Origin: a virus
Length of the DNA stretch: 21,020 bases
Strand: one strand, 5' to 3'
IMG/VR virus record: IMGVR_UViG_3300018049_002076
Coordinates: 1 to 21,020 of that record
This document shows, one piece after another, positions 3,109 through 21,020 of this stretch. Numbering within the stretch: the stretch's first letter is position 1; each line of letters opens with the position of its first letter. Below the pieces are notes generated by a model, which ran no database searches, was not told the DNA's origin, and was given only the letters and a program-made list of their open reading frames with translations. The position numbers and the translations under genes were made by a program.

Positions 3109-3116
3109 TATTTATC
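3109..3116 (-). promoter_or_regulatory. T4-type late promoter, 5 bases before the gp13-like ATG
   Basis: The minus strand reads GATAAATA-GTAGT-ATG, with no purine-rich ribosome site between core and start codon. It lies between the stop of the 379-aa gene (3127) and the gp13-like ATG (3103). The 16-base context is identical to the one before the gp14-like gene at 15428-15443. T4 late spacing puts transcript +1 on the A of the ATG. Confidence 0.78.
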
Positions 3117-4271: not shown

Positions 4272-4502
4272 TCAGTCTTCAAAATTGTCGAAGGAAGGAT
4301 CTAAAAATGCGGCCTTGATTGGATCAGGCCAAGTTTCAAATCCTAATATGCTCTGTTTATCTTTTAGAGCACTTCTTTTTTTGTAAAACTGAGTAATACT
4401 TATCATTCCGGTAAAAATCCCTTCTTTTTTACCTGCATTATAAGAAAAAACGGTGTTTAATACTACAAATCCTATAAAAAGTGCGGCTGTTGCAAAATCC
4501 AT
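4272..4502 (-). CDS. Small membrane protein of unknown function, 76 aa
   Basis: One hydrophobic N-terminal helix (about residues 4-21, ATAALFIGFVVLNTVFSY) is followed by a basic patch (AGKK, and later YKKRSALKDK) and an acidic tail (DPSFDNFED). This predicts a single-pass inner-membrane protein with its C-terminal part in the cytoplasm by the positive-inside rule. A good ribosome site (AAGGAAG) lies 7 bases before the ATG. It is the first gene after the sigma70-like promoter at 4532-4559 and is followed 5 bases later by the 379-aa gene. No family is recognised. A role at the host membrane early in infection is possible but unsupported. Confidence 0.7.
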   Translation of the reverse strand: MDFATAALFIGFVVLNTVFSYNAGKKEGIFTGMISITQFYKKRSALKDKQSILGFETWPDPIKAAFLDPSFDNFED

Positions 4503-4531: not shown

Positions 4532-4559
4532 ATTATAACATTACTTAGTTATTTGTCAA
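4532..4559 (-). promoter_or_regulatory. Near-perfect sigma70 promoter with extended -10
   Basis: On the minus strand TTGACA (4559-4554) is separated by 16 bases from TATAAT (4537-4532), and the -10 is preceded by TGT, giving an extended -10 TGTTATAAT. Both hexamers are exact consensus. The -35 overlaps the last codons of the radical SAM gene (ACTTGACAAATAA). Predicted start near 4525, 22 bases before the 76-aa ATG. This is the only clear host-type promoter seen; all others here are of the T4 late type. Confidence 0.8.
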
Positions 4560-6399
4560 GTATTTTATTAAGGTGCCAACTTTTACGTCTGTGGTAGTAC
4601 ATCAGATCTAAATGCTCTTCTAGAGATCTTGTTGTTTCTGGGTGTCGATCAGTCACTATAACTGTGTTGCCAAATGCATTAGATTTTAAATCTACAATGA
4701 CTGGGGCGTCTAGATATTTGCCAAACTGCTTGATTTGCAAATTTGTTAATCTCTTATAATCGCTAATTATATTGTTATCAACTTTGTCTTTTAAAAAGTT
4801 TGCTACTAAATCAACAAAATATTCGACTAAGTTGCTTTTTTGGATTGCAGGCATTAACGATTGAAACATTTGCCAACCTTCTAATGAGTAATTACCTAAC
4901 GTAACACCCATGTATCCTTTAACTTTCCATTGTTCTAAACCTAATTTAATTTGCTCAATCCATGAGGATAAATGTTTATCATCTTTTATTGCTTCAAACA
5001 AATCACTGTAAAAATCTATGTATTCTGTTTGTTTATTTTCATAAAAATATTTTGAGATCAAATTTGTTATTCCGTACATATGAAACCCAATAATAAACCA
5101 ACTTAGAATAGATGCTTCTATTAAATCTTCACGTGGCAATGTTTTTGTTGATTCTATTACTTCAACTGACTCTGCTAATCCGTCTTCGATGTCTTGTTTA
5201 AATGTTTTTGTGTGAACTCCGTAGAAAAAGTCGTAAGCCTTAAAAGTTTTAAGATCGTATTCGACTACTTGTTTAACGTACATAGGAGAGTTTATTATAA
5301 GTTGTAAATAATAAATGTCGTAATTAGTTATACCATTTTTCATTACATCATTTAATGTATTTTTCCAAGATAATTTTGTTTCACCAGGCATTCCTAATAT
5401 TAACTCTGTGGATATAGGCAGACGATTATCTTCTGCTAATTTCACAACTTCGTCTATTGTGTTTATTTTCATATTGCGCCTATCTATATTAGCAAGAACG
5501 TCCGAAGAAGTTGTTTGTAAACTTAAAATGATTCCAGATTGTATGTCCGCATCGGCAAACGTTTTAACAATGTCCACTACTGTTTTATTACTGTTTTTTG
5601 CATAACTCACACTAATACCACTAGGGTAACCATAACTTTCCTTACAGTCTACAATTATTTGTGCTATTTGTAGATCTCTATCTTTAAAAATACCAAAATT
5701 ACTAGATGTTAGCGATATAAAAGGTAATCTATTTTTTCCTACCCATTCTATTTCAGCATTAATTCTATCAAAATAAAGTTTATACATTTTACTTGCAGTT
5801 GCACTACCCCAATCACAAAAAGTACAACCATACGGACATCCACGATCAGTTTCAATAGTCGGAACCCATTCAATGTCAGGAAATTTTGCAATTAAGTTAT
5901 CGAAGAGTCCGTCCAAGTAAGGGCTAGGAAGATCTAAATCTTTAATTCTATCAAATTCATATTTTTTTTCTAGTTGTGTGCCTTCGATAAAATCTAGCAG
6001 AATTTTTTCTACTGCTAACTCTCCTTCTCCTATAACAATAGAATCTATGTAAGGATATTTTTCAAATAAAGCAGGATCGCGCCAAGGCGTTTCTGGTCCG
6101 CCTAGTATAATTTTTATATTAGGATATGATTGTTTTAATGTTTCAGCAAGTTTAAGAGAATATTTAATATTCCAGACATACACACTCAATAAGACAATGT
6201 CTATGCCGGCATGGTTTTTTACAACACTATCAATAGGGTCTCTTCGAAATGTTATGTTGCCTAAAGCAAAATTTTCTTTAATTTGTTGATTAAGTTGTAC
6301 ATAGGACCATAAGGCACCTACACTATAAGGTAAGTAAAAACTGTTTAAGTGCTTTGGTCCTGTTTGAAAATTAGGCTGTACAAGGCTAACATTATACAT
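4549..6399 (-). CDS. Large radical SAM enzyme with B12-binding-type N-terminal domain
   Basis: 616 residues. Radical SAM enzymes cleave S-adenosylmethionine at a [4Fe-4S] cluster to start radical chemistry. The CxxxCxxC cluster motif is intact (Cys188, Cys192, Cys195 in RGCPYGCTFCDWG). Residues 1-150 have the Rossmann-like layout of cobalamin-binding domains (IDIVLLSVYVWN, then IKIILGGPETPWRDP), but the DxHxxG cobalt-ligand motif is absent, so any B12 would bind base-off/His-off or not at all. PSPYLDG before the cluster is typical of BchE-like B12-radical SAM proteins. About 250 residues of unassigned helical sequence follow the barrel. It is last in the operon that starts with the amidinotransferase; its ATG shares TAATG with the epimerase stop, after an AAGGAAA ribosome site. 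The substrate is unknown; methylation or C-C chemistry on the operon's product is inference. Confidence 0.85.
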   Translation of the reverse strand: MYNVSLVQPNFQTGPKHLNSFYLPYSVGALWSYVQLNQQIKENFALGNITFRRDPIDSVVKNHAGIDIVLLSVYVWNIKYSLKLAETLKQSYPNIKIILGGPETPWRDPALFEKYPYIDSIVIGEGELAVEKILLDFIEGTQLEKKYEFDRIKDLDLPSPYLDGLFDNLIAKFPDIEWVPTIETDRGCPYGCTFCDWGSATASKMYKLYFDRINAEIEWVGKNRLPFISLTSSNFGIFKDRDLQIAQIIVDCKESYGYPSGISVSYAKNSNKTVVDIVKTFADADIQSGIILSLQTTSSDVLANIDRRNMKINTIDEVVKLAEDNRLPISTELILGMPGETKLSWKNTLNDVMKNGITNYDIYYLQLIINSPMYVKQVVEYDLKTFKAYDFFYGVHTKTFKQDIEDGLAESVEVIESTKTLPREDLIEASILSWFIIGFHMYGITNLISKYFYENKQTEYIDFYSDLFEAIKDDKHLSSWIEQIKLGLEQWKVKGYMGVTLGNYSLEGWQMFQSLMPAIQKSNLVEYFVDLVANFLKDKVDNNIISDYKRLTNLQIKQFGKYLDAPVIVDLKSNAFGNTVIVTDRHPETTRSLEEHLDLMYYHRRKSWHLNKILDK

Positions 6400-7355
6400 T
6401 ATTTTCCTTTAGAAAATCGCCTATCTTGATTGTGAGGTAGATTATTTTGTACAATATCTTTCCAGACTGCAATGGTTCTGTCTAGTCCTTCATTAAGACC
6501 AACTTTAGGTGCCCAGCCTAATCTAGTAGTAATCTTATGGTTAGTACTATTAAGCAGATAGATTTCGCCTGGTCTAGGTGGCTTAGTATTCCAGTTAATA
6601 TGTCCTGTCCAGCCAAGTTTACTTGCAATAAGAGTTACATAGTCTTTAATTTTAATTGCATTGTCTGGGCCAATACAGAAAATTTCTCCTTGACACTTGT
6701 CAGGATTTTCAATAACTGCTTGCCACGCATCAAGAAGATCGTCAATATAGATAAAGTTACGGTATGGTTCACCGTAGCCTAAATTGATTTCTTTTTCGTT
6801 TGTAAGCATTTGGTAGATAATTTGTTCTGTTACAAAGAAATTGTTATCTTTTCTTCCATACGCATTAGTCTGACGAATTGCGGTAAAGGGTAACCCATAA
6901 CTCCTATGGGCGTACTCAAGGTATTTCTCGCACCCATACTTAGCAACAGCATAAGGAGCATTGGGGTTTGGAGGTGTACTTTCATTAAATGCTATAATTC
7001 CTTCTTCTCTGCCTTCTCTAATAAGGTCACTAATTGGTTGCCAACCATACACTTCCATTGTACTAGCAAATACAAAGTTTTTTAAGTTTGGCAATGATGC
7101 GGCAATTTCAATTAAGTTTACTGTGCCCACATAATTAATTTCGCTAAATGTAATTTGCTCATAAAAACTATCTTGTACTTCTGTTCTTGCGGCTAAGTGT
7201 ACAATAATTTCAGGATCAAATTGTCTTATTTGAAACCCTACTTTGTCGTGATCTCTGAGATCGTGTTGTAAAAATTCTAGTTTGTGCTTGTCTTTAAGTC
7301 GTTCAACCATGTGCTGGCCGATAAAACCGTCTGCTCCTGTTATAAAAATTCTCAT
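6399..7355 (-). CDS. NAD-dependent epimerase/dehydratase (extended SDR, NDP-sugar type)
   Basis: 318 residues. Extended short-chain dehydrogenases of this type epimerise or dehydrate nucleotide sugars using bound NAD(P). Seen: the glycine-rich nucleotide motif GADGFIG (7-13), the HLAA motif (53-56), the catalytic Thr in FASTMEVYG (about 97-104), and the YxxxK pair Tyr135/Lys139 (PYAVAKYGCEKY). The C-terminal RPGEIY segment is typical of UDP-glucose 4-epimerase, dTDP-glucose dehydratase and GDP-mannose dehydratase relatives. The exact substrate cannot be read. The ATG overlaps the stop of the preceding oxygenase as ATGA, and its TAA overlaps the next ATG, so it is embedded in the six-gene operon. 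The missing nucleotide-sugar partners may be supplied by the host. Confidence 0.88.
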   Translation of the reverse strand: MRIFITGADGFIGQHMVERLKDKHKLEFLQHDLRDHDKVGFQIRQFDPEIIVHLAARTEVQDSFYEQITFSEINYVGTVNLIEIAASLPNLKNFVFASTMEVYGWQPISDLIREGREEGIIAFNESTPPNPNAPYAVAKYGCEKYLEYAHRSYGLPFTAIRQTNAYGRKDNNFFVTEQIIYQMLTNEKEINLGYGEPYRNFIYIDDLLDAWQAVIENPDKCQGEIFCIGPDNAIKIKDYVTLIASKLGWTGHINWNTKPPRPGEIYLLNSTNHKITTRLGWAPKVGLNEGLDRTIAVWKDIVQNNLPHNQDRRFSKGK

Positions 7356-7903
7356 GTGTAAATTCCTTTGTTTGCAAATCCAGATACCTGTAATGTATAT
7401 CTGTTTTCGTTACCTATATTTATTACTGAGTGAATCTTACCTAATTTAATAATAGCATAATCTCCTTTTTTATAATTAAAACAAATTGTGTTATCCATTT
7501 CAAAATAATGCCCGATCTTATGATCTTGTAAAAATAAATTTATTCTTACTGGTTCTTTATCGGTAATATCTATATTATTAACTCTGGCAAATTCTCGCAA
7601 TTTTAAAAATGCATCTCTGTGTGGTGGGATAAAAAATCCCGGTTCTATTAAATTAATTGTTACCATGCTATGCTCGATAGTGTTAGCAAACATGTCTTTT
7701 ATTTTATGAGCCCACTCAGGGCAATCGGATCCGAATGATTGATGAACTATTGCTGATTCTTGTTTTACTTTTGGTTTCGGTAATCCTAATTCCTCCCAAG
7801 TAAATTCTATATGGTGAGTTTCCTTAAATACTGTTTGATCTAACATTTCATCTGTTAAAAAATCAATATCTATATGACCTTTGATCAAACTATTATTGGT
7901 CAT
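7352..7903 (-). CDS. 2OG-Fe(II) oxygenase-like protein, third tandem paralogue
   Basis: 183 residues from the ATG at 7903. A longer in-frame start at 7927 would add eight residues that match nothing in the paralogues, so I prefer 7903, where the N-terminus (SLIKGHIDIDFLTDEML) aligns with its neighbours. It resembles aspartyl/asparaginyl beta-hydroxylase-type cupins: HxD iron ligands His95/Asp97 (PPHRDAF), distal His158 (KIHSVINIG), candidate 2-oxoglutarate Arg168, and the core PVRINLFLQD-x(4)-HYFEM. It is closest to the gene immediately upstream, sharing RINLFLQD, GHYFEM and KGDY. It overlaps that gene by 11 bases and the epimerase by 3. The substrate (protein side chain, small molecule or sugar) is unknown. 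Confidence 0.8.
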   Translation of the reverse strand: MTNNSLIKGHIDIDFLTDEMLDQTVFKETHHIEFTWEELGLPKPKVKQESAIVHQSFGSDCPEWAHKIKDMFANTIEHSMVTINLIEPGFFIPPHRDAFLKLREFARVNNIDITDKEPVRINLFLQDHKIGHYFEMDNTICFNYKKGDYAIIKLGKIHSVINIGNENRYTLQVSGFANKGIYT

Positions 7904-8444
7904 AATCCAGGTTCTCTTCTTTTGCATAACCTGTAAGTTGCATTGTAAATCTTGTTTGATACCCTAGGTTTGCAACTAAATGTGTGCAATCTGGCTTTAT
8001 GATTGTGTAGTCACCTTTTACATAGTCGATCCATGCTTCATTTTCCATTTCGAAATAATGCCCTTCGAGTCTATCTTGTAAAAATAAATTTATTCTTATA
8101 GGAGATAAACCTGATATATCTATATTTTGATTTTTAACTTTTTGTTGCATTTTAAAAAGTGTATCGGTATGCGGTGCAATAAATCTACCTGGTAATATTT
8201 TATTAACAGTAACCATGCTATACTTTAACCAAGGAAATAAATCTTTGCAGTTTGCTACCCAACCGGGGCAGTCGCCCTCAAACACTTGTTGCACCCAAGG
8301 TGCGTCATGAGGGTAATCAGGTACTGCTACTCCTTTCCTATCCCAATAACCTGCACTCCAAACCGTGTTGACGTGCTCCACAAACTTTAATCTGTAAAGC
8401 ATTTCGTCGTCTATATGACTTATGTCAACATGTCCTTTATACAT
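7893..8444 (-). CDS. 2OG-Fe(II) oxygenase-like protein, second tandem paralogue
   Basis: 183 residues. Iron-binding triad His92/Asp94 (APHTDTLF) and His155 (CTHLVANLG), with Arg165 as probable 2-oxoglutarate ligand and Arg117 in PIRINLFLQD. The order of elements matches the gene downstream almost segment for segment (GHVDI at the start, DCPGWV, SMVTVNKI, PHTD, NIDI, RINLFLQD, GHYFEME, KGDYTIIK), so the two arose by duplication and then diverged. It overlaps the previous gene by 8 bases and the next by 11, which implies translational coupling. Enzymes of this family hydroxylate or desaturate using oxygen and 2-oxoglutarate. The substrate cannot be inferred beyond its operon partners. Confidence 0.8.
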   Translation of the reverse strand: MYKGHVDISHIDDEMLYRLKFVEHVNTVWSAGYWDRKGVAVPDYPHDAPWVQQVFEGDCPGWVANCKDLFPWLKYSMVTVNKILPGRFIAPHTDTLFKMQQKVKNQNIDISGLSPIRINLFLQDRLEGHYFEMENEAWIDYVKGDYTIIKPDCTHLVANLGYQTRFTMQLTGYAKEENLDYDQ

Positions 8445-8928
8445 TTTTTAATACTGTAACCTGTGCAGAATAAAAAGGCTCGTCGCCCATGTTACCTGCT
8501 ATGTGCCAATCATCGTTACCAAACTTAACCCATTCGCCTGCACTCCATTTAGTAAATGGTTGATCATGTACTTCGTAATAGTGGCCTCGTTTCCAATCTT
8601 CTAGGAAAATTAAATAACGATAACTTTCTCCTTCACCATGTGCTTCTTTAAGTTTAAAGTGCTTGTCTACATGATGAGGTATAGTTTGACCTGGATCAAT
8701 TTTAATCACACTTACAACATGATGGTCAAAATCTTGCGGTAGTTGTTTAGCAAAGTCATGTACCCATTGAGGCGACTCATCAAACATTTGCCAAATACTG
8801 CTATTACCTTCAGTATAATAATGATGTAGTTTATCGTATTGTCTATAACATTGAAAATAATCTACAAATTTTAGATCATTTAACATTTTATTAGTTACAT
8901 CAATGTCAAGTTTGCCGTATTTAATCAC
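8437..8928 (-). CDS. 2OG-Fe(II) oxygenase-like protein, first and most divergent tandem paralogue
   Basis: 163 residues starting with GTG at 8928, which overlaps the amidinotransferase end (TGTGATTAA); GAGAG lies upstream as a possible ribosome site. The N-terminus (KYGKLDIDVTNKML) aligns with the other two. HxD is present as His86/Asp88 (IPHHVDKH) and the distal His is His142 (DDWHIAGNMG). The Arg expected ten residues after the distal His in the other copies is replaced by Phe152 (EPFYSAQ), so 2-oxoglutarate binding must differ, may use Arg104 in SYRYLIFLED, or may be lost. It is shorter than its paralogues because the loop between HxD and the RYLIFLED strand is reduced. Confidence 0.76.
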   Translation of the reverse strand: MIKYGKLDIDVTNKMLNDLKFVDYFQCYRQYDKLHHYYTEGNSSIWQMFDESPQWVHDFAKQLPQDFDHHVVSVIKIDPGQTIPHHVDKHFKLKEAHGEGESYRYLIFLEDWKRGHYYEVHDQPFTKWSAGEWVKFGNDDWHIAGNMGDEPFYSAQVTVLKNV

Positions 8929-9982
8929 AATAACTCTCTAAAGTTCCTCTTCTTCTTAAATCTAATGTAGCACAATGTATGCCGCCTGAGAGCGTCATAG
9001 AGTGACGGAATTGGACAGGTACACTGTTGATACCATATTTGTCTAGCTCACGCATTAGAGGCTCTTGTGCTGAGTCTAAGACTACCGTATTCTCGTCTAC
9101 ACTGAGTAAGTTCATACCAATGTATGGAGAACACGGGGGCATGTAACCTTGGTCTGCTAATTTACTGCCTTGTACAACACAATCATCAAACCAAATCTTA
9201 TCCCACTTAGCAAACATTTCCGGACAGTTGTCTGGTGTTACTCTTGAGCTGTTTAATAACACTAATCCAGGTCTTAGTGGAACAATGGTGCTGTCAAAGT
9301 GAGCAAAACTATAAAGTTCGCTGTAATGTAATTTGTAACCCATAGGCTCTAATAATCTTTTAAGCCACTTAAAGCCTTTCATGTTGCCTGAGTTACTTAC
9401 TTGATATAATAAGTCTCTGCCTACTCTCACAATATTTGGTGCATCAAAACATATCTCATGATCCAATAATGTTGGTTTGTTTTCAATGTCTTCAAAAGTG
9501 TACATGTCGTCATGTAGTTTTGGCTTAGGTGCTTGTAACCAAAGAGCACCGTCTTCGAATGCTTCATATAAAATATCTTCGTATAACCTTGTTTCAAAAT
9601 ATCTTGCTCTTACAGGAGTAGGAGTTTCTATTAACATATCTCCTAATGGCAGTATTAAATCTCTTGGGCACCAACTATACCAGCCTTTGGTATTCCAACC
9701 TTGACCAATATCGTAATTTACTTTGTCCCAATCAATAATTTTAGGTCTGTGTACTATAACACCTAAGTCTTCAAGTGCTTTTGCAAGACCATCTGCATCT
9801 TCGTTGGCTTCGTCGATTACCCATTGCGGATAAGTGCCTTCTAGTTTTTCTACGTCTTCTTTTGGAAAGTTTGCATAACTAAAACTTCTTGCTGAAATGT
9901 CTGTTGCTATGCGTGAATGATGGGCATGTCCTACTATAATCTCTTCTAAAGGGTCCCAGTCGTTGTGAGAATTTACAATCAT
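8921..9982 (-). CDS. Amidinotransferase, glycine amidinotransferase (AGAT)-like
   Basis: 353 residues, about the usual family length. These enzymes move the amidino group of arginine to an amine acceptor (glycine in AGAT, lysine, or an inosamine phosphate), leaving ornithine. The catalytic set is complete: Asp180 (CFDAPNIVRVG), His228 with Asp230 (FAHFDSTIV), and nucleophile Cys337 (SGGIHCATLDLR). RDLILPLGDMLIETP and RARYFETRLYEDI match the AGAT core. It is first in the six-gene operon, with a late promoter at 10015-10022, a short leader and a clear CAGGAG site before the ATG. The acceptor is unknown. The adjacent oxygenases, epimerase and the PLP enzyme upstream suggest a guanidino-bearing small molecule or sugar, by loose analogy with aminocyclitol pathways. 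Confidence 0.9.
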   Translation of the reverse strand: MIVNSHNDWDPLEEIIVGHAHHSRIATDISARSFSYANFPKEDVEKLEGTYPQWVIDEANEDADGLAKALEDLGVIVHRPKIIDWDKVNYDIGQGWNTKGWYSWCPRDLILPLGDMLIETPTPVRARYFETRLYEDILYEAFEDGALWLQAPKPKLHDDMYTFEDIENKPTLLDHEICFDAPNIVRVGRDLLYQVSNSGNMKGFKWLKRLLEPMGYKLHYSELYSFAHFDSTIVPLRPGLVLLNSSRVTPDNCPEMFAKWDKIWFDDCVVQGSKLADQGYMPPCSPYIGMNLLSVDENTVVLDSAQEPLMRELDKYGINSVPVQFRHSMTLSGGIHCATLDLRRRGTLESYCD

Positions 9983-10014
9983 TTTGTCTCCTGTGTGTAA
10001 TCATAATCAACTAC

Positions 10015-10022
10015 TATTTATC
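10015..10022 (-). promoter_or_regulatory. T4-type late promoter of the amidinotransferase operon
   Basis: The minus strand reads GATAAATA-GTAGT, identical over 13 bases to the gp13 and gp14 promoters, but here the ATG does not follow directly. The predicted start near 10009 leaves a leader of about 27 bases that contains CAGGAG, placed 5 bases before the ATG at 9982. It sits just after the stop of the PLP-enzyme gene (10032). A six-gene transcript from here would run to at least 4549. Confidence 0.75.
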
Positions 10023-10031
10023 GGCTTAGAT

Positions 10032-10895
10032 TTAGCAATCTCCTAAAAATTCGCTTACACATACTCTATAATTCCCCCTAACACCTCTATTAAATTCGGT
10101 ATGTCGAGCGTCGTCACCTAATCCAAATATTACTGTGTCAGTCCATACTAGATCTTCCTTGTGGCAAAGTTCTTCGTATGCATCCTTATATTTTTGCCAA
10201 TTATAATCAGGCGAAAAGTTACGCATATACTCGACGCCTAACGCCATAGAATGATTATTAGCCATTTTAACTTCGTTTAGCATACTAATACCATCGTCAG
10301 CATAATCTTTTGTAAACCTTACGCCCACTCTGTGATTTTCCAAAGTAAAAAATGGTTTGCTAAGACTGCATGTAACTTCTTTAATACAAGGATATAAATT
10401 TAAATCGATATGCACGTTTTTTGCTATCCCCCAATATGCTAAATCTAAACACACCGGAATTTCGAAATCATTGCAGACCCCCATTATGTTTTCAAACTCA
10501 GGATGTATGGCGCCATAATCACTAAAAGGGGCACTAATTATTAATGCATGTAAATCTTTTCCGTATAAAAAGTCAGGGTGTATGTGCATTAACTCTTTAA
10601 ATTCTGCAAATTTAGTAATGCATCGATGATATTGAAACTCTCCGTTTAATGCAACAATTTGTCTTTTGTGATTATGTTTCATTACAAAATGATCGAATGT
10701 TTGGCTAGTACCCTGTGTATAGTCTGCAAAACTAAATGATTCTAACCCTTTAAGAGATTTATTGTCGCTGTAATTTATCCACTCACGAAAAGTATTAGTA
10801 TATGTGTCTAGGTCTACATCTTTTAAATTTATATTTTTATGAAAATCATAAATTTCTTTGTTTCGTATTGGTCTTGCTCCTCTAACTGCAGGCAT
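10032..10895 (-). CDS. Short PLP-dependent aminotransferase-like protein (fold type I)
   Basis: 287 residues, much shorter than the roughly 400 of typical class I/II aminotransferases, although the catalytic core is visible: Asp151 (CLDLAYWG) for the pyridine nitrogen with Tyr154, the Schiff-base Lys180 in CSLSKPF, and Arg189 (HRVGVRF) in the usual R-x-G spacing. An ADYTQGTSQTFDHF segment near residues 57-70 may hold the phosphate loop. Most of the usual N-terminal and C-terminal small domain is missing. It starts 14 bases inside the end of the preceding gene, with a strong AAGGAG site. It may transfer an amino group to a sugar or keto acid, or be a non-catalytic derivative. It is last in the SGNH/tRNA/isocitrate lyase unit and directly precedes the amidinotransferase operon. 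Confidence 0.66.
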   Translation of the reverse strand: MPAVRGARPIRNKEIYDFHKNINLKDVDLDTYTNTFREWINYSDNKSLKGLESFSFADYTQGTSQTFDHFVMKHNHKRQIVALNGEFQYHRCITKFAEFKELMHIHPDFLYGKDLHALIISAPFSDYGAIHPEFENIMGVCNDFEIPVCLDLAYWGIAKNVHIDLNLYPCIKEVTCSLSKPFFTLENHRVGVRFTKDYADDGISMLNEVKMANNHSMALGVEYMRNFSPDYNWQKYKDAYEELCHKEDLVWTDTVIFGLGDDARHTEFNRGVRGNYRVCVSEFLGDC

Positions 10896-12195
10896 TATTT
10901 AACTCCTTAAAAAAGTTTCTATTGCTAAAGTGTCTAAAGTTACCAGACTTAATATGCTTATAATTTTTATCTATTGCTGGTTGACACTTTTTAAGTAGTG
11001 CGACCATATCGTCAATACTTAGAGTTTCTAGTTCTTTAATAGTTAAATAACACCACTCAACTCGATCAAACATTGTATCTTGTTGGCTGAAAGATAAATC
11101 AAAAACATCTCTATAAACATCAAAACCTATTTTTTCCATTTCCTCATATACACCCTTACTACCAAATGTAATATAAGGAACTTTGTAATACATAGGTATC
11201 ATTTGTTTTTCGTCTGCATATCCCCATCCGTTAGGCTCACCACTAGCAATAATCGCTATATTAATATTTTTATATAACCATTCTGGTGGATGTCCTTTGT
11301 CTTGAAATCCGACCATGTCTAATTTATGTGGTGGCTTATAAAGGGTATGCATCATTTGATTAACAAATTTAGGGTTATCTACATCGTCGAGCACTTCTTT
11401 AATAGCAACCGACAGCATATTAACTTGGTATTGATACTCGTTGCTATTTTCTTTGATGTTGTCTAACCACCATGGTTGTAAACTCCATAATCTACTATAA
11501 CGTACACTCGATAAATTAGATTCTATTAATGTACTCATGATAAGTCTATGTGCCCTAGGATTACGCATTGTCAATAAGAACTTATTACCGCATGTCATGT
11601 ACTCCGGGGTTTCATCGGGTGCTTCTGTTTGAGTTTCAATGAAATGTCTGGGGCTATCTTTGAATTCGCTGTATTCCTTTATATAATGTACTCTATCAAA
11701 ATACCATAATTTAAAAATTATTTTCACATTATTGCACTGTTTAAGTTTAGCAAAGTTATGTTCATATCGATTTGGTATTTCTCCTGACCCGCTCATAATA
11801 AAAAAACATTCTTTATACTTATTGGCTAGTTCTGCAATAAACAAATTATTTTCATTATAGTAAGGCTCTGTGCTTGTATAAAGAAGAAATATTTTTTTGT
11901 GTGTTGTAATTTTACTATTAATAGTTTCTATTATTTTAGTAACTTCTTCACCCAACGGTGTAATACTGTTAATACCATTACGGTCTTCAAATGATAGTTT
12001 ATTACTTTGATAATCTATTGGTACAATAACATCCCCGTCTACAAGTTTAGATACATCTCCGTCACTAATAACATTGTGAGAGATTTGGCCAAATTTGTTC
12101 AATTGGCAAATAGTTTCCAAAGGCAAGTATACCTGATTTAAATTTTTTAATAGATCAGATTGGCAATGGTCTTGTAAATAATAGATGTTATACAT
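10882..12195 (-). CDS. Probable glycosyltransferase-like protein (exostosin-like C-terminal region)
   Basis: 437 residues with no signal peptide or membrane span. I do not recognise the N-terminal half. The C-terminal half has the layout of phage exostosin-like or GT-B-like proteins: GEPNGWGYADEKQMIPMYYKVPYITFGSKGVYEEMEKIGF (about residues 315-355), where an E-K-x(2)-P-x(6)-P-Y/F element is followed by an acceptor or nucleotide-sugar loop and a GFDVYRDVFD segment, then helices ending in KELETLS. The start codon follows the isocitrate lyase stop after 3 bases without a Shine-Dalgarno, so translation is probably coupled. Codon use is much more AT-rich than in isocitrate lyase. The function is tentative; host surface glycan or phage-protein glycosylation is possible. 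Confidence 0.6.
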   Translation of the reverse strand: MYNIYYLQDHCQSDLLKNLNQVYLPLETICQLNKFGQISHNVISDGDVSKLVDGDVIVPIDYQSNKLSFEDRNGINSITPLGEEVTKIIETINSKITTHKKIFLLYTSTEPYYNENNLFIAELANKYKECFFIMSGSGEIPNRYEHNFAKLKQCNNVKIIFKLWYFDRVHYIKEYSEFKDSPRHFIETQTEAPDETPEYMTCGNKFLLTMRNPRAHRLIMSTLIESNLSSVRYSRLWSLQPWWLDNIKENSNEYQYQVNMLSVAIKEVLDDVDNPKFVNQMMHTLYKPPHKLDMVGFQDKGHPPEWLYKNINIAIIASGEPNGWGYADEKQMIPMYYKVPYITFGSKGVYEEMEKIGFDVYRDVFDLSFSQQDTMFDRVEWCYLTIKELETLSIDDMVALLKKCQPAIDKNYKHIKSGNFRHFSNRNFFKELNNACS

Positions 12196-12198
12196 AAA

Positions 12199-13407
12199 TT
12201 AAAATTGTGCTGTCTCCGTACTGTCTTTAAGTGCGGCTACACTGCTTGCACCTACTGCTTCGCTAATTGCATCAAAGTATCCAACACCAACTTCTCTTTG
12301 ATGTTTAACTGTGGTAAATCCGTCTACTTGTGCTCTAAACTCTTTTTCTTGTAAATCGCTGAAGGCAAGCATACCGTTTTCTCTGTACTGTTTTGCAAAA
12401 TCAAATACAGCATAGTTTGTGGCATGAAATCCAGCAAGCGTAATAAATTGAAATTTAAATCCTAGTTTTCCGAGTTCATGCTGAAACTCTTTGAGTTCTT
12501 CACTGCTAGGAATACTTTGTCTCCAATTAAAACTTGGAGAACAGTTGTATGCTAACATTTGATCAGGATATGCTCCTCTTACTGCATCAGCAAAATATTT
12601 TGCTTCTTTGAGGCTTGGTGTACTGGTTTCACACCAAATCAAATCTGCATACTCTGCATACGCCTGTCCTCGTTCTGCACCATATTCCATTCCACCATTA
12701 ATCTCATAAAAACCTTCTGGTGTTCTATTGCCTGTGCAAAATCTTTTATCTAAATCATCAACATCATTGCTTAACAGTTTTGCACTTTCTGCATCTGTAC
12801 GAGCAATAATCACTGTGTCGGTTTCTGCAACATCACTGGCAAGTCTTGCCGCATTTAAATTTCTAATTGCTTGACTTGTAGGAATAAGTACTTTGCCACC
12901 TAGGTGGCCGCACTTCTTTTCGCTTGCAAGTTGATCTTCGAAATGCACTGCCGCCGCTCCTGCTTCGATTAAATTTCTTGCGAGCTCGTATGCGTTGAGT
13001 GCGCCACCGAACCCTGCTTCTGCATCAGCAATGATTGGTGCGAAGTTAAAGCCTTGTCCGCCTTCAAGCACATCGATTTGATCTTGTCTGCGGAACGCAT
13101 TGTTAATGCTACGCACCACATTAGGAACGGAATCGACCGCATATAGACTCTGATCAGGGTAAGTCTCATTTTGTGAATTAGCAGAAGCCGCGACTTGCCA
13201 TCCTGATAGATATATAGCGTCAAGTCCCGCTTTAACGTGTTGTACAGCCTGTTGCCCATTATATGCTCCAAACGTGTTGATGTATGGCTTTGTTGCTAGT
13301 AATTCTCTGAATTTTTTAGCACCGTTTTTAGCCAATGTGTGTTCAATTTTTACCGAACCCTGTAACTGTTTTACTTGCTCGGGGGCGTAATTCCTCTTGT
13401 TTCCCAT
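12199..13407 (-). CDS. aceA: Isocitrate lyase
   Basis: 402 residues from the ATG at 13407. It cleaves isocitrate to glyoxylate and succinate, the entry step of the glyoxylate shunt. Essentially all family hallmarks are intact: SGWQVA (68-73), IADAEAGFGG (126-135), HFEDQLASEKKCGHLGGK with catalytic Cys166 in KKCGH (164-168), NCSPSFNW (288-295), FKFQFITLAG and the terminal STETAQF. E. coli AceA has 434 residues; this copy lacks part of the N-terminal arm and a short loop. The open frame continues upstream to 13512, but those 35 residues are a translated tRNA and leader, and the 13407 ATG has an AGAGGAAG site. Base composition is markedly higher in G+C than in neighbouring genes (about half G+C in 12961-13080), suggesting recent transfer. 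No malate synthase is in the window. Confidence 0.96.
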   Translation of the reverse strand: MGNKRNYAPEQVKQLQGSVKIEHTLAKNGAKKFRELLATKPYINTFGAYNGQQAVQHVKAGLDAIYLSGWQVAASANSQNETYPDQSLYAVDSVPNVVRSINNAFRRQDQIDVLEGGQGFNFAPIIADAEAGFGGALNAYELARNLIEAGAAAVHFEDQLASEKKCGHLGGKVLIPTSQAIRNLNAARLASDVAETDTVIIARTDAESAKLLSNDVDDLDKRFCTGNRTPEGFYEINGGMEYGAERGQAYAEYADLIWCETSTPSLKEAKYFADAVRGAYPDQMLAYNCSPSFNWRQSIPSSEELKEFQHELGKLGFKFQFITLAGFHATNYAVFDFAKQYRENGMLAFSDLQEKEFRAQVDGFTTVKHQREVGVGYFDAISEAVGASSVAALKDSTETAQF

Positions 13408-13436: not shown

Positions 13437-13526
13437 TGGCGGAGAGAGAGGGATTCGAACCCTCGATACAGTTACCCGTATAACACCTTAGCAGGGTGCC
13501 GCTTTCGACCACTCAGCCACCTCTCC
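13437..13526 (-). tRNA. tRNA-Ser(GCU), CCA end encoded
   Basis: A complete cloverleaf on the minus strand. Acceptor GGAGAGG pairs with TCTCTCC (one G-U). The D-arm region is GGCTGAGTGGTCGAAAGC. The anticodon stem GCACC/GGTGT encloses loop CTGCTAA with anticodon GCT. The long class II variable arm has stem ATACGG/CTGTAT and loop GTAA, which together with the anticodon fixes serine. The T arm is GAGGG-TTCGAAT-CCCTC. Discriminator G is followed by encoded CCA (13439-13437). It reads AGC/AGU codons. The first 39 bases double as the 3' end of the SGNH reading frame, and the isocitrate lyase ATG follows 29 bases after the CCA, so it appears embedded in a protein-coding transcript. Confidence 0.96.
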
Positions 13527-14278: not shown

Positions 14279-14286
14279 TATTTATC
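14279..14286 (-). promoter_or_regulatory. T4-type late promoter, leftward, 5 bases before the SGNH ATG
   Basis: The minus strand reads GATAAATA-TTTAT-ATG. It is one half of a 55-base divergent promoter region (14274-14328); the other half is the rightward core at 14316-14323. Because of the palindromic ATAAATATTTAT, a perfect TATAAATA also occurs on the plus strand at 14273-14280 and could add a second rightward start. No Shine-Dalgarno is present. Confidence 0.68.
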
Positions 14287-14328: not shown

Positions 14329-15432
14329 ATGTACAAAAGTCATGTTAATAGTGTTCACATAGAAGTAACCGATCGATGCAATGCATTATGTCCAGCATGT
14401 CCTAGAACTTTTAGTGGCAGTTTTGAAATGCCTTATGTAAAAAATCAAGAATTAGGGTTAGAATATTTTAAGTTACTAGGCAAAGAGTTTATTTCAAATA
14501 TTAGAACATGGAATTTTTGTGGCACAAAAGGCGATCCAGCATCAGCACAAGAACTATTTGAAATTTTAGATTATATTCTAGATTGCAATCCTAAAGCATT
14601 TATAGAAGTTAGAACAAATGGTGGAGCAAGAAATCCTAAATTTTGGAAAAGCATAGGTGAAAGATTCAAAGGAACATACTCAAGTGTTGTATGGAGCATA
14701 GACGGTTGGGAAGAAACTAATCACATATATCGTAGAAATGTTAAGTGGAGTAAATTATTTGAAAATTTACAAGCGTATGTGGGAACAAAAGCACCTGCAA
14801 AATGGGAGTTCAACAAGTTTGCTCATAATATGAAAGACTTGCCTATCATAGAATACTTTTGCAAGAAAAATAACATTGATCTCATACTGCGTGAACCTTT
14901 TGGATTTGAAACTATAGATGCAATGACAGTTGACAGTGAATACAAAGAGCAAGTAAAAAGATTGCCTGTTTACAAAATTGTAGACGATGTGGCTAATTTA
15001 GACTATGAAATTGAACCTTTTGACAAAGAAAATAAAATTTTAGTATCAACTAGCCGTAAACAAGTACACAAAGATGAAGGGCTAAAGCCGGGTGTATATA
15101 ATAAAGAAAACTGGTGTAATGTAAACGGTACTAATATAGATGTTGAATGTGTTGTAAGTACTAATAATAACAGACAGGAGATTTATATTGATTCTGATGG
15201 TACTATATTGCCCTGTTGTTATATAGGTTCAACATACATTATGGGCGATGAGCAATGCCGAGAAATGGTAGACCCTGTAAAAGAAAGTTTAATAGTTTCA
15301 ACAGATAATTCCATTTATGATGTGCTAAACAGTGACTTTTTTCAAAAAACTATGCCGAGTGGCATACAAGGAAATATGGATAATGATGTGAAGTATTGCA
15401 TTACTTGTTTACACCATTGTAGAAAGCGATAA
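14329..15432 (+). CDS. Radical SAM protein with SPASM-like C-terminal cysteine cluster
   Basis: 367 residues. The radical SAM CxxxCxxC motif is Cys17, Cys21, Cys24 (RCNALCPACPRT). WNFCGTKGDP (61-70) is a variant of the SAM-binding GGEP region, and EVRTNGG (93-99) and VVWSIDG (120-126) are typical barrel strands. A SPASM/twitch-type domain follows: DSDGTILPCC (Cys296, Cys297), Cys310, and CITCLHHC (Cys357, Cys360, Cys364), enough to hold an auxiliary Fe-S cluster. SPASM enzymes often modify peptides or proteins; dehydrogenation or side-chain chemistry is possible, and the substrate is unknown. It lies directly upstream of the gp14-like gene, whose promoter overlaps this gene's TAA stop. The start is preceded by a late-promoter core at fixed 5-base spacing. 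Confidence 0.85.
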   Translation: MYKSHVNSVHIEVTDRCNALCPACPRTFSGSFEMPYVKNQELGLEYFKLLGKEFISNIRTWNFCGTKGDPASAQELFEILDYILDCNPKAFIEVRTNGGARNPKFWKSIGERFKGTYSSVVWSIDGWEETNHIYRRNVKWSKLFENLQAYVGTKAPAKWEFNKFAHNMKDLPIIEYFCKKNNIDLILREPFGFETIDAMTVDSEYKEQVKRLPVYKIVDDVANLDYEIEPFDKENKILVSTSRKQVHKDEGLKPGVYNKENWCNVNGTNIDVECVVSTNNNRQEIYIDSDGTILPCCYIGSTYIMGDEQCREMVDPVKESLIVSTDNSIYDVLNSDFFQKTMPSGIQGNMDNDVKYCITCLHHCRKR

Positions 15433-15435
15433 ATA
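15428..15435 (+). promoter_or_regulatory. T4-type late promoter, 5 bases before the gp14-like ATG
   Basis: GATAAATA-GTAGT-ATG, identical to the gp13 promoter context. The core overlaps the TAA stop of the radical SAM gene (15430-15432), and the whole intergenic space is 8 bases. There is no Shine-Dalgarno. It should drive gp14, gp15 and the Nudix gene. Confidence 0.78.
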
Positions 15436-15440
15436 GTAGT

Positions 15441-16499
15441 ATGGGCAAATTAAGTTTATGGAATCCAACAAAAACTAATGACTTCAACTTTATAGATAGA
15501 ATAGTTGGAGAGCATCTCTACGCAGGTGGAACCGGCGTACATGTACACAAATATATAGGTATACAGGATACAGAAGTAACCGGAGATCCTACAAGACCAG
15601 GTGGTGCAGGTGGTGGAGAAACATATATACAAGATGTACTGTTTTTAGAGAACAGAGACCGCAAGTACGACACAAACATATACGAATTACGTGGGCAATA
15701 TAATTTAGGCGACAATGATTCGTTTGATTTAACACAATTCGGTATGTTCTTGGCAAATGATACTCTTTTTATGAACTTTCATATTGAGAGCATGGTTGAA
15801 GCAATAGGGCGTAAACTTATGCCTGGCGATGTACTAGAATTACCACATTTAAGAGACGACCTGTTATTAGGCAGTGACGAAGCAATAAACAGATTTTATG
15901 TAGTTACAGATGGTAGCAGACCAGCAGAAGGTTATGATCCCCGTTGGTGGCCTCACTTATGGCGTGTCAAATTAGGACCTATAAGCGACAGTCAAGAATA
16001 CAGAGATATACTCGGTACTGGCGAAGAAGAAGGAGACCTCAGAAATCTCATCAGCACATACGCAGATGAAATTACAATTAACGATAAATTATTAGAACAA
16101 GCAGAAAATGATGTGCCGTTTGACACACAAACTAGATCAAAGGCACATTTATACGTTGATGAAAATGCTAAAGGAAAAGCAGGCATCGGTTTTGGTGGTG
16201 GCGACGGTCTTCCGCCTAATGGTGTAAGTATTGTGGGCAGTGGAGAAACATTCCCTATAAACGGTGTTAACAACGGTGATTACTTTTTGCGTACAGATTT
16301 TTCACCAAATCGACTTTTTCAAAAGAGCGGAAATCGTTGGTTAAAAGTTGAAGATGATTCTAGAGGAACTTGGGCCGCGGCAAATAGAATTTTAACAGGC
16401 TTTATTAATAATGACAATCTTGTTTCACTAGAAGACGGCGAAACAATTAACGAAAAAACAAATTTAAGCAAGGTTGTAAAACCTAGGACAGATAACTAA
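15441..16499 (+). CDS. 14: Neck protein, T4 gp14-like, with C-terminal extension
   Basis: 352 residues against 256 in T4 gp14. Gp14 sits in the neck and joins the filled head to the tail. The core FGMFLANDTLFMNFHIE, then KLMPGDVLELPHLRDD, INRFYVVTDGSRPAEGYDPRWWPHLWRVKL and SDSQEYRDIL follows the gp14 order seen in marine T4-like phages. The extra C-terminal part (about residues 265-352) contains GDYFLRTDFSPNRLFQKSGNRWLKV, a beta module resembling decorations in the sheath and gp15 genes here. A glycine-rich stretch (PGGAGGGE) lies near residue 55. Leaderless-type start at 15441. The TAA overlaps the gp15 ATG (TAATG), indicating coupled translation. Confidence 0.78.
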   Translation: MGKLSLWNPTKTNDFNFIDRIVGEHLYAGGTGVHVHKYIGIQDTEVTGDPTRPGGAGGGETYIQDVLFLENRDRKYDTNIYELRGQYNLGDNDSFDLTQFGMFLANDTLFMNFHIESMVEAIGRKLMPGDVLELPHLRDDLLLGSDEAINRFYVVTDGSRPAEGYDPRWWPHLWRVKLGPISDSQEYRDILGTGEEEGDLRNLISTYADEITINDKLLEQAENDVPFDTQTRSKAHLYVDENAKGKAGIGFGGGDGLPPNGVSIVGSGETFPINGVNNGDYFLRTDFSPNRLFQKSGNRWLKVEDDSRGTWAAANRILTGFINNDNLVSLEDGETINEKTNLSKVVKPRTDN

Positions 16500-19466: not shown

Positions 19467-21020
19467 CTATTTGCTTGTTGCTATAAATACACCGTTCCAA
19501 TCTTCTGGTAGGTCTTGAGTTTTTTGGAATTCGCAACGCTCAATCCACATGTCATAATACGCATTCATTTTACCATCAAACTCACCTTTAAGTTGTTTGC
19601 AAAAATGTATTGCCATATCAAAACTTTGATTACGATAGCACTCGTGCATTTTATCGTGCTGTGGTTGTATGGCAGGCCAGTTTGTGCTTTCCCAAGCATA
19701 GTCCCATGTGCTTAATACCGTGTATATAGTAATCCCTACACTCTTACCTTTTACTGCTAAATCATCTACCTTAAGATAAAAGAATTCATCAGATGTTTCG
19801 TTATAAGTATTTTCGCCCACAAGCAATAAGCACCCGTACTCTTTACATTTGCTTTCTATCCTAGCGGCAGTACTAACAGCGTCTCCAAGAACATCATAAC
19901 TGTGTCTGCTTGTAGAACCCATTTCCCCAAGATATCCCAAGCCAGTATTAATGCCAGCCCCCATACCAATGGGTGGTCTGCCTTCCGCAGTAATTTTCTC
20001 ATTAAAGTCCTCCACTGCTGTTAACATGTTTAGTCCAGTCATAACTGCTGAATGTGCATGTCGTGGATCATCATTGGGTGCATTGTGTACATGCATACTA
20101 GCATCACCGATATACTTGATAATCATTCCGTCCGCATCAAGTACAGGTTGTGTGATTGCATCCATGTAACCATTCATTAACTTTGTTAATCCTTGCACAT
20201 CGTCACCGAAACTTTCACCTAATGGTGTAAAGCCACGCAGGTCACTAAAACAAATTGAAATCTCTCGTTTCATACCTTCTTTAATCAGTGCAGGGTTTTG
20301 TTGAAGCATACGCACAACTGTAGGCGAGCAGTACCCTGCAAACTGCTTCTGAATTTCCTGTCTAAGTTTGAACTGTATCCAAAAGTTGTTAAACGAACTA
20401 TGTGTGAATACCAAGAACGCACTTAATGCAGGAAATGTTGCGTCAAATAAAACTAAATTGGCAGTATAAGAATGTACACTATAATATACAATTCCACCTA
20501 TAATGCCTACTGTAGTAAACAATCCTGCCCATATAGGCAACTTGTATATTGCTATTGCTATTAAAACCATGCTCAACAAAGCACACAGAAGCTCTACAAG
20601 CGACGATAATTCTGATCTGGTAATGTTACTACCATCAATGAAATTTTGTAGCATAGACGCTTGTATGTGCTGTGGCAGTATGTTGCCTCTCGGAGTGGGT
20701 ACCGGATTGGCAACACCTTCTGCACTCACACCCACTATAACGAACTTTCCACCTAAGTCAGGCAGTTCACTCGCATCTGTATATTCGTATTCATCAAAAG
20801 AGTTATTAAAACGAATATAGGCTGTTCCATCAGGCTGTGTAACAATAGGTTCAAAAGGTGGTACTGCAAATTCTTGTACACCTATTTCTGATGTCTTTAA
20901 CATATAACTTGGCTTTTGTGTATATGCTCTCAACATCTCAATAGCAAAGGAGGGATATATTTTGCCCTCTACACCAATTGCTAATGGATATGTTCTTGTT
21001 TGATTATCTGGTTGTGGTGC
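19467..21020 (-). CDS. CHASE2-domain class III adenylate cyclase (5' end beyond right edge)
   Basis: The frame is open to base 21020, giving 517 visible residues; the true start lies outside. A Met at 20936 is internal, because the 28 codons before it (RTYPLAIGVEGKIYPSFAIEM) belong to CHASE2, an extracytoplasmic sensor domain. Numbering from that Met: CHASE2 continues to about 105 (KFVIVGVSAEG, then ILPQHIQASMLQNF). Three membrane helices follow (about 112-131, 136-153, 160-178), then a linker helix and the cyclase domain from about 225. Metal ligands Asp232 (CFSDLRGFTPLG) and Asp278 (KYIGDAS), adenine-selecting Lys274 and Asp348 (YDVLGDAV), and Arg359 (AARIES) are present. The usual transition-state Asn is Ser355. 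Expected to make cAMP in response to a periplasmic signal. Such a large membrane cyclase is surprising in a phage. Confidence 0.9.
   Translation of the reverse strand, partial: APQPDNQTRTYPLAIGVEGKIYPSFAIEMLRAYTQKPSYMLKTSEIGVQEFAVPPFEPIVTQPDGTAYIRFNNSFDEYEYTDASELPDLGGKFVIVGVSAEGVANPVPTPRGNILPQHIQASMLQNFIDGSNITRSELSSLVELLCALLSMVLIAIAIYKLPIWAGLFTTVGIIGGIVYYSVHSYTANLVLFDATFPALSAFLVFTHSSFNNFWIQFKLRQEIQKQFAGYCSPTVVRMLQQNPALIKEGMKREISICFSDLRGFTPLGESFGDDVQGLTKLMNGYMDAITQPVLDADGMIIKYIGDASMHVHNAPNDDPRHAHSAVMTGLNMLTAVEDFNEKITAEGRPPIGMGAGINTGLGYLGEMGSTSRHSYDVLGDAVSTAARIESKCKEYGCLLLVGENTYNETSDEFFYLKVDDLAVKGKSVGITIYTVLSTWDYAWESTNWPAIQPQHDKMHECYRNQSFDMAIHFCKQLKGEFDGKMNAYYDMWIERCEFQKTQDLPEDWNGVFIATSK

Follow-up and report, generated by a model that had tools for sequence, protein, structure and literature searches.

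A co-inherited aminotransferase-like, StrB1-like amidinotransferase and AspH-like oxygenase unit at a variable cargo site of jumbo myoviruses

The window analyzed here, the whole 21,020-base virus record IMGVR_UViG_3300018049_002076, is a jumbo myovirus fragment, as placed by its structural genes, with PA5oct as the nearest isolate. Six overlapping open reading frames (ORFs) on its minus strand (4549-9982) encode an amidinotransferase (AMT), three AspH-like oxygenases (OX1, OX2 and OX3), an NDP-sugar epimerase/4,6-dehydratase-like enzyme (EPI) and a B12-binding radical SAM enzyme (rSAM). Genes of a pyridoxal phosphate-type, aminotransferase-like protein (PLP) and a glycosyltransferase (GT) lie upstream (Table 1). 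A previous sequence-only reading had described the six genes as a single biosynthetic operon led by a late promoter; each of the six ORFs is confirmed, and the promoter motif is backed by relatives. Comparison with related phages revealed that the operon is composite: the PLP gene belongs to a co-inherited unit with AMT and the oxygenases, GT is accessory, and EPI and rSAM are separable. We tentatively propose that this module, cargo of the tail/host-recognition locus in jumbo myoviruses, is expressed late and makes a guanidino-bearing glycan block that is put on a virion protein, most likely of the tail.

Co-inheritance at a variable cargo site

Search with the window AMT yielded 131 pattern-confirmed viral hits, of which 80 were kept, all sharing one neighborhood. 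PLP and EPI occur in each of the 46 loci that reach from the virion gene to p11903; OX1 is present in 40 of them and OX2 in 37, followed by a SPASM-type radical SAM gene (25), GT (21), rSAM (19) and the rare OX3 (5). As these loci had been picked by AMT, a second set was picked by the flanking adaptor gene. Among its 24 spanning loci, PLP, AMT and OX1 occur together in 15 and are all three absent from the other nine. The 15 full loci all have EPI, 14 have OX2 and three also have rSAM, whereas the nine others comprise four with EPI and rSAM, two with EPI alone and three clean empty sites, in which the virion gene starts ~150 bp from a small membrane gene. These related contigs share ancestry, and the counts are not independent events.

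Since PLP, AMT and OX1 are all-or-none in the 24 spanning loci, the PLP-AMT-OX genes form a co-inherited unit. By contrast, EPI and rSAM are separable, as both occur without PLP, AMT and OX1 in related phages, and the idea of one indivisible six-gene pathway does not hold. Independent occurrence of the genes, which the sequence-only reading had named as speaking against a joint pathway, was thus found for EPI and rSAM and not for the all-or-none PLP, AMT and OX1. Its argument that such genes are not packed together by chance is borne out by the co-occurrence analysis, in which dozens of contigs share the set and unrelated phages carry it too.

The empty, EPI-only, EPI+rSAM and full alleles lie between the same two flanks, forming a variable cargo within structural genes. 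The virion protein at the right flank shares 46%, 45% and 37% identity with its counterparts in PA5oct, Atu_ph07 and SCTP-2, respectively, and a tail sheath protein (phrog_10581) is encoded at the left end of the window. In PA5oct, tail-fiber genes occupy the matching place upstream of the same virion gene.

Enzyme families and catalytic motifs

The best phmmer match of AMT is the inosamine-phosphate amidinotransferase StrB1 (PDB 1bwd, 1.6e-85), with weaker matches to human AGAT, SxtG and HsvA. The residues Asp180, His228 and Cys337, previously read as an intact catalytic triad, do not vary among eight phage sequences. In a 60-sequence tree, with some long branches flagged by the tool, a split with 98/94 support puts AGAT and HsvA on one side and, on the other, the window type with StrB1, two bacterial relatives and two further phage groups. 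In addition, the AMT/StrB1 alignment lacks the extra residue that AGAT and HsvA carry before the catalytic His. Judged by family and motifs, AMT is a predicted intact StrB1-type amidinotransferase. Creatine/glycine amidinotransferase was rejected as its best name, given its grouping with StrB1 and a window in which no guanidinoacetate methyltransferase was seen. Pfam search of the 21-kb window, part of an incomplete phage genome, found no cyclitol-forming enzyme (inosose synthase or inositol dehydrogenase). AMT is 85-97% identical among relatives whose virion protein is 68-88% identical, which is partly a selection effect of a set chosen by AMT similarity.

Profile comparison assigned OX1 and OX2 to the same oxygenase family, and OX3 matches Pfam Asp_Arg_Hydrox (2e-4) with a score just below the cut-off. 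All three have the HxD...H iron site. In AspH-like enzymes, an Arg ten residues past the distal His binds 2-oxoglutarate. This Arg is kept as R165 in 28 of 28 OX2 sequences and as R176 in OX3, whereas OX1 has a Phe in its place (Phe152) in each of the 24 sequences that have a residue in this column. The earlier call of three oxygenases stands for the iron site, with OX1 lacking the canonical 2-oxoglutarate arginine.

In PLP, the motifs SLSK180, DLAYWG and HRVG are invariant in the alignment, with K180 as the candidate Schiff-base lysine. The structural model is weak, with a pLDDT of 49, and its Foldseek matches are all fold-type-I PLP enzymes. The Pfam Aminotran_1_2 match is just 0.06 and there is no clear sequence match; a PDB sequence search with the PLP profile returned nothing useful. 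Pelagiphage Mosig encodes a relative of PLP, a putative short aminotransferase. The GT model has a pLDDT of 81, and its Foldseek and VIA-align matches are all GT-B, from which GT is predicted to be a GT-B glycosyltransferase. The PLP enzyme and glycosyltransferase-like gene noted upstream of the operon are thus recovered as an aminotransferase-like protein and a GT-B enzyme.

EPI is an extended short-chain dehydrogenase/reductase (SDR; Pfam Epimerase 8e-42). Its hidden Markov model matches include dehydratases as well as epimerases, all below the cut-off. Because the GxxGxxG and YxxxK motifs are intact but the segment STMEVYG is invariant, having T-M-E where 4,6-dehydratases have T-D-E, we call EPI NDP-sugar epimerase/4,6-dehydratase-like only. 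Pfam search of rSAM detected both Radical_SAM (1.6e-13) and B12-binding (8e-11) domains, and the cluster motif CPYGCTFC conforms to a CxxxCxxC pattern found in 19 of 19 sequences. Its nearest family is that of the KedN5 C-methyltransferases, at 219.5 bits against a curated NCBIfam cut-off of 700 bits. Pfam and profile comparison thus agree with the sequence-only reading on the three oxygenases, the epimerase/dehydratase and the B12-type radical SAM enzyme.

Late-promoter motif

AMT starts 32 nt after the motif GATAAATA. As this motif is not above chance in the window itself (8 found versus 5.9 expected), the claim of a late promoter is drawn from the relatives. There, the T4-type late-promoter core NATAAATA lies 18-35 nt upstream of AMT in 55 of 77 loci, at a background of 0.027 per 100 nt. 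It also precedes PLP in 32 of 72 loci and at least one of GT, PLP and AMT in 71 of 77. The virion genes on the flanks are preceded by it in every locus (61 of 61 and 56 of 56). The motif copies at 15428-15435 (+) and 3109-3116 (-) end 5 nt before two virion start codons in nearly all relatives, a spacing that suggests leaderless late transcripts or another role of the motif.

Recurrence in unrelated phages

Pattern-confirmed hits numbered 330 and 60 for two further AMT queries. The 330, all further viral hits, came from the AMT of the isolate Synechococcus phage S-SCSM2R (38% identical). In T4-like cyanophages, 74 loci had enough flank to be scored for genes within four of AMT. GT25-like genes turned up in 65 of them, a short DegT aminotransferase and an AspH-like oxygenase in 59 each, a carbamoyltransferase in 28 and a SPASM radical SAM gene in 21. 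The third query (57% identical; from L086, a contig of a metagenome-assembled genome with phage-like genes) led to 59 loci in several further contexts, beside tail-fiber-like genes, DNA polymerase or 7-deazaguanine-type genes, several of these names being read from sequence only. In 42 loci of this third set, PLP (29), AspH-like (32), GT-B (29) and SPASM/twitch radical SAM (27) genes lie within four genes of AMT; some loci have a fused sporadic-carbohydrate-cluster 2-oxoglutarate oxygenase/LIC12192 protein (TIGR04324, TIGR04323) between PLP and AMT.

Because the pairing of a small aminotransferase with AMT recurs across unrelated phages, it arose or spread repeatedly, with two aminotransferase families. 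The guanidino-sugar or amidino-compound theme of the sequence-only reading is in line with these neighborhoods, where the partners of AMT in unrelated phages are DegT aminotransferases, glycosyltransferases, a carbamoyltransferase or the sporadic-carbohydrate-cluster oxygenase. In several phages (L183, L185, L187), an AMP-binding (adenylating) enzyme of ~490 residues and a partner gene of 80-90 residues adjoin AMT. In the loci L201-L215, PLP-AMT stands beside GTP cyclohydrolase-like, QueE-like and tRNA-guanine transglycosylase-like genes downstream of AMT, which resemble 7-deazaguanine enzymes by names read from sequence only. A collagen-like logic, in which a hydroxylase and GT25 would act on collagen-repeat fibers, was also considered; the records of 14 relatives, which are fragments, gave no Pfam collagen match.

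Proposed function and alternatives

The enzyme families, the intact catalytic motifs of AMT, OX2 and rSAM, the late motif, the co-inheritance of PLP, AMT and OX, the empty sites and the recurrence are established for the module. A guanidino-glycan on the virion is favored because of the late-promoter motif, the tail-locus site, the NDP-sugar enzyme, the glycosyltransferases and the StrB1-like AMT, and it is further supported by the tail-fiber-like genes that adjoin the module in other phages. As for substrate, step order, product and target, we infer the following scheme. A keto-sugar or other carbonyl acceptor would come from the EPI-type SDR, or from the host, and be aminated by the short PLP enzyme, after which the StrB1-like AMT would move an amidino group from arginine to that amine. 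OX2 (and OX3) would hydroxylate the product or the attachment residue, and the GT-B enzyme, where present, would transfer it, whereas the B12 radical SAM enzyme, where present, might add a methyl group or remodel the ring. A bolder extension, which we consider doubtful, is that guanidino-glycan pathways were put together independently in many lineages of marine phages, that a cationic, arginine-like virion sugar tunes adsorption or escape, and that OX1, once an oxygenase, has taken on a new role independent of 2-oxoglutarate.

Several observations weigh against a guanidino-glycan on the virion. GT is present in just 21 of the 46 spanning jumbo loci, and no tail-fiber gene lies inside the window. 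Beyond the jumbo phages, EPI is rarely near AMT (5 of 74 and 5 of 42 loci) and therefore may serve another sugar. The window PLP looks class I-like, a type that more commonly handles amino acids than sugars; a DegT homology was rejected, as no profile matched. Two bacterial AMTs at a similar distance (L087 and L089) adjoin carbamoyl-/formyltransferase-like and LysE-like genes, not glycosyltransferases; the families in these neighborhoods were read from the sequences, not assigned by search. Moreover, substrate, product and target remain predictions.

The main alternative target is the host surface: the same chemistry might place the guanidino-bearing sugar on a surface polysaccharide or lipopolysaccharide, blocking superinfection or altering adsorption. 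Such a role has been guessed for phage glycosyltransferase clusters (PMC7029224; PMC7824862) and would suit the glycosyltransferases and NDP-sugar enzymes, but the virion-type late-promoter motif and the site within tail genes make it rather unlikely, and the window shows no polymerase, flippase or O-antigen transporter. Slightly less probable is a free metabolite in place of a glycan, be it a small guanidino amino acid or another compound such as an antimetabolite or osmolyte. It stays in consideration because PLP is class I-like and the L087 and L089 clusters combine carbamoyl/formyltransferase-like with LysE-exporter-like genes and lack glycosyltransferases, and the adenylating enzyme beside AMT in some phages fits as well; against this, glycosyltransferases and sugar-type genes recur in the phage neighborhoods, and the window cassette has no exporter.

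The module could also modify a virion protein directly and without sugar, the oxygenases and radical SAM enzymes acting on side chains and AMT amidinating an amine-bearing residue. The AspH family hydroxylates protein residues, SPASM/twitch radical SAM genes recur and the late-promoter motif would fit; however, known amidinotransferases use small acceptors, and the PLP aminotransferase, the NDP-sugar enzyme and the GT-B enzyme would be left unexplained, so that we regard this as improbable. We give a little less credence still to unrelated auxiliary genes gathered at one insertion hotspot. EPI and rSAM do come and go independently at a cargo site with empty alleles, but PLP, AMT and OX1 are all-or-none at that site and are re-paired at other sites in unrelated phages. 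Least probable, and very unlikely, is DNA hypermodification, in which the GT-B enzyme and partners would make a modified base. The best structural neighbors of the GT model do include T4 DNA beta-glucosyltransferase (Z 10.9) and a dNMP kinase is nearby, yet all other GT-B folds score nearly as high, the late-promoter motif argues against it, and a thymidylate-synthase/dCMP-hydroxymethylase homologue is absent from 14 jumbo fragments and 12 AMT-bearing records (124-364 kb), which as fragments are not proof. Glucosylation of hydroxymethyl-pyrimidine DNA in particular was rejected, as these 26 records contain no thymidylate-synthase family member.

Gene layout and neighboring features

The six ORFs overlap at each junction, by 8 nt (AMT/OX1), 8 nt (OX1/OX2), 35 nt (OX2/OX3, taking the longest ORF; 11 nt if translation begins at the internal ATG, 7903), 4 nt (OX3/EPI) and 1 nt (EPI/rSAM). 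The overlaps of 8, 8 and 1 nt given before are thus correct, that of 11 nt applies from the ATG at 7903, and the 3 nt given for OX3/EPI should be 4. The PLP gene stops 49 nt ahead of AMT and overlaps GT by 14 nt. A perfect sigma-70 promoter match (TTGACA-16-TATAAT, 4532-4559, minus strand) precedes the small membrane gene; because the TTGACA element also precedes this gene in the three empty-site loci, the promoter belongs to the flank and not to the cassette.

Table 1. Features of the window around the amidinotransferase module
Feature	Position	Strand	Basis
AMT, StrB1-like amidinotransferase, catalytic Asp180/His228/Cys337	8921..9982	-	phmmer 1bwd, invariant triad, tree
PLP, short fold-type-I aminotransferase-like protein	10032..10895	-	alignment, Foldseek, co-occurrence with AMT
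OX1, AspH-like double-stranded beta-helix oxygenase; H86, D88, H142; Phe152	8437..8928	-	
OX2, AspH-like Fe(II)/2-oxoglutarate oxygenase; H92, D94, H155, R165	7893..8444	-	
OX3, AspH-like oxygenase, OX2 paralogue, rare in relatives	7352..7927, likely start 7903	-	Pfam
EPI, NDP-sugar epimerase/4,6-dehydratase-like SDR, separable from AMT	6399..7355	-	
rSAM, B12-binding radical SAM, related to KedN5 C-methyltransferase family, accessory	4549..6399	-	
GT, GT-B-fold glycosyltransferase, accessory	10882..12195	-	model, Foldseek, VIA-align
GATAAATA, T4-type late-promoter-like motif before AMT	10015..10022	-	
GATAAATA, late-promoter-like motif before SGNH-ICL-GT-PLP run	14279..14286	-	
SPASM-type radical SAM, accessory neighbor, divergently transcribed	14329..15432	+	
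Virion structural protein, right edge of empty site	15441..16499	+	phrog_11591 2e-92; PA5oct 46%
Small membrane-like ORF, left edge of empty site, own sigma-70-like promoter	4272..4502	-	

Within the cargo site, a tRNA-Ser(GCT) at 13437-13526 (-) is present in 10 of 18 relatives scanned and may mark an insertion point. Between this tRNA gene and GT lies a full-length isocitrate lyase (ICL) gene (12199-13404, minus strand; NCBIfam PRK15063, 642 bits, above the cut-off). None was seen at that place in the AMT-selected relatives; phage C48C1 has one with 74.5% identity. A contig chimera at the tRNA-Ser/ICL junction was rejected, as tRNA-Ser(GCT) stands at the same place in those 10 relatives. A CHASE2-domain class III nucleotide cyclase (19467-20936, minus strand) is retained in 27 of the 46 spanning relatives; it is 59% identical in the Methylophilales phages Melnitz and is also found in Pelagibacter phage HTVC008M.

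Relation to known systems

The earlier statement that no phage system of this composition has been described was too strong, given the module of the Campylobacter phages CP220 and CPt10 (PMC2853527) and the modification clusters of cyanophages (PMC7824862). We found no literature description of an amidinotransferase-glycosyltransferase phage module beyond the Campylobacter phages, nor of a PLP-AMT-AspH unit. Amidinotransferase genes occur widely in aquatic phage contigs, where annotation tends to assign them to glycine or creatine metabolism (e.g. PMC8226683). The genome context speaks otherwise: their partners are aminotransferases, AspH-like oxygenases and glycosyltransferases, and a virion-type late-promoter motif accompanies them in the jumbo group. 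Should the virion indeed carry the product, guanidino sugars would represent a novel type of decoration on phage particles, and the module would offer a direct handle on the role of phage 2-oxoglutarate oxygenase and radical SAM genes.

The closest solved relative of AMT is StrB1 of streptomycin biosynthesis (1bwd), which is alike in catalytic triad and loop length; compared to that pathway, no aminocyclitol-forming genes were seen in the window. In CP220 and CPt10, an interchangeable module contains a putative glycine amidinotransferase and five radical SAM genes (PMC2853527). Similar to the window, this module has the putative amidinotransferase beside radical SAM and nucleotide-diphospho-sugar transferase-like genes, but its AMT is only 24-30% identical, no AspH-like oxygenase was seen beside it, and its radical SAM genes number five.

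The sugar/amino-acid modification clusters of jumbo cyanophages described by Iyer et al. 2021 are predicted to serve polysaccharide decoration or a secondary metabolite (PMC7824862). These phage-borne clusters contain 2-oxoglutarate oxygenases, cupin-like enzymes, carbamoyltransferases and glycosyltransferases, whereas the main text of that paper mentions neither amidinotransferase nor aminotransferase, and the window has no carbamoyltransferase or halogenase. The pelagimyophage host recognition cluster is likewise a hypervariable island; it lies in the structural region and carries tail fibers along with glycosyltransferases and radical SAM cassettes (PMC7029224). It differs from the window in phage lineage and flanks, Mosig having no AMT match and the window no tail fiber. 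Nevertheless, phage Mosig resembles the window in carrying short aminotransferase and Asp_Arg_Hydrox genes, which in Mosig stand beside the tail fibers.

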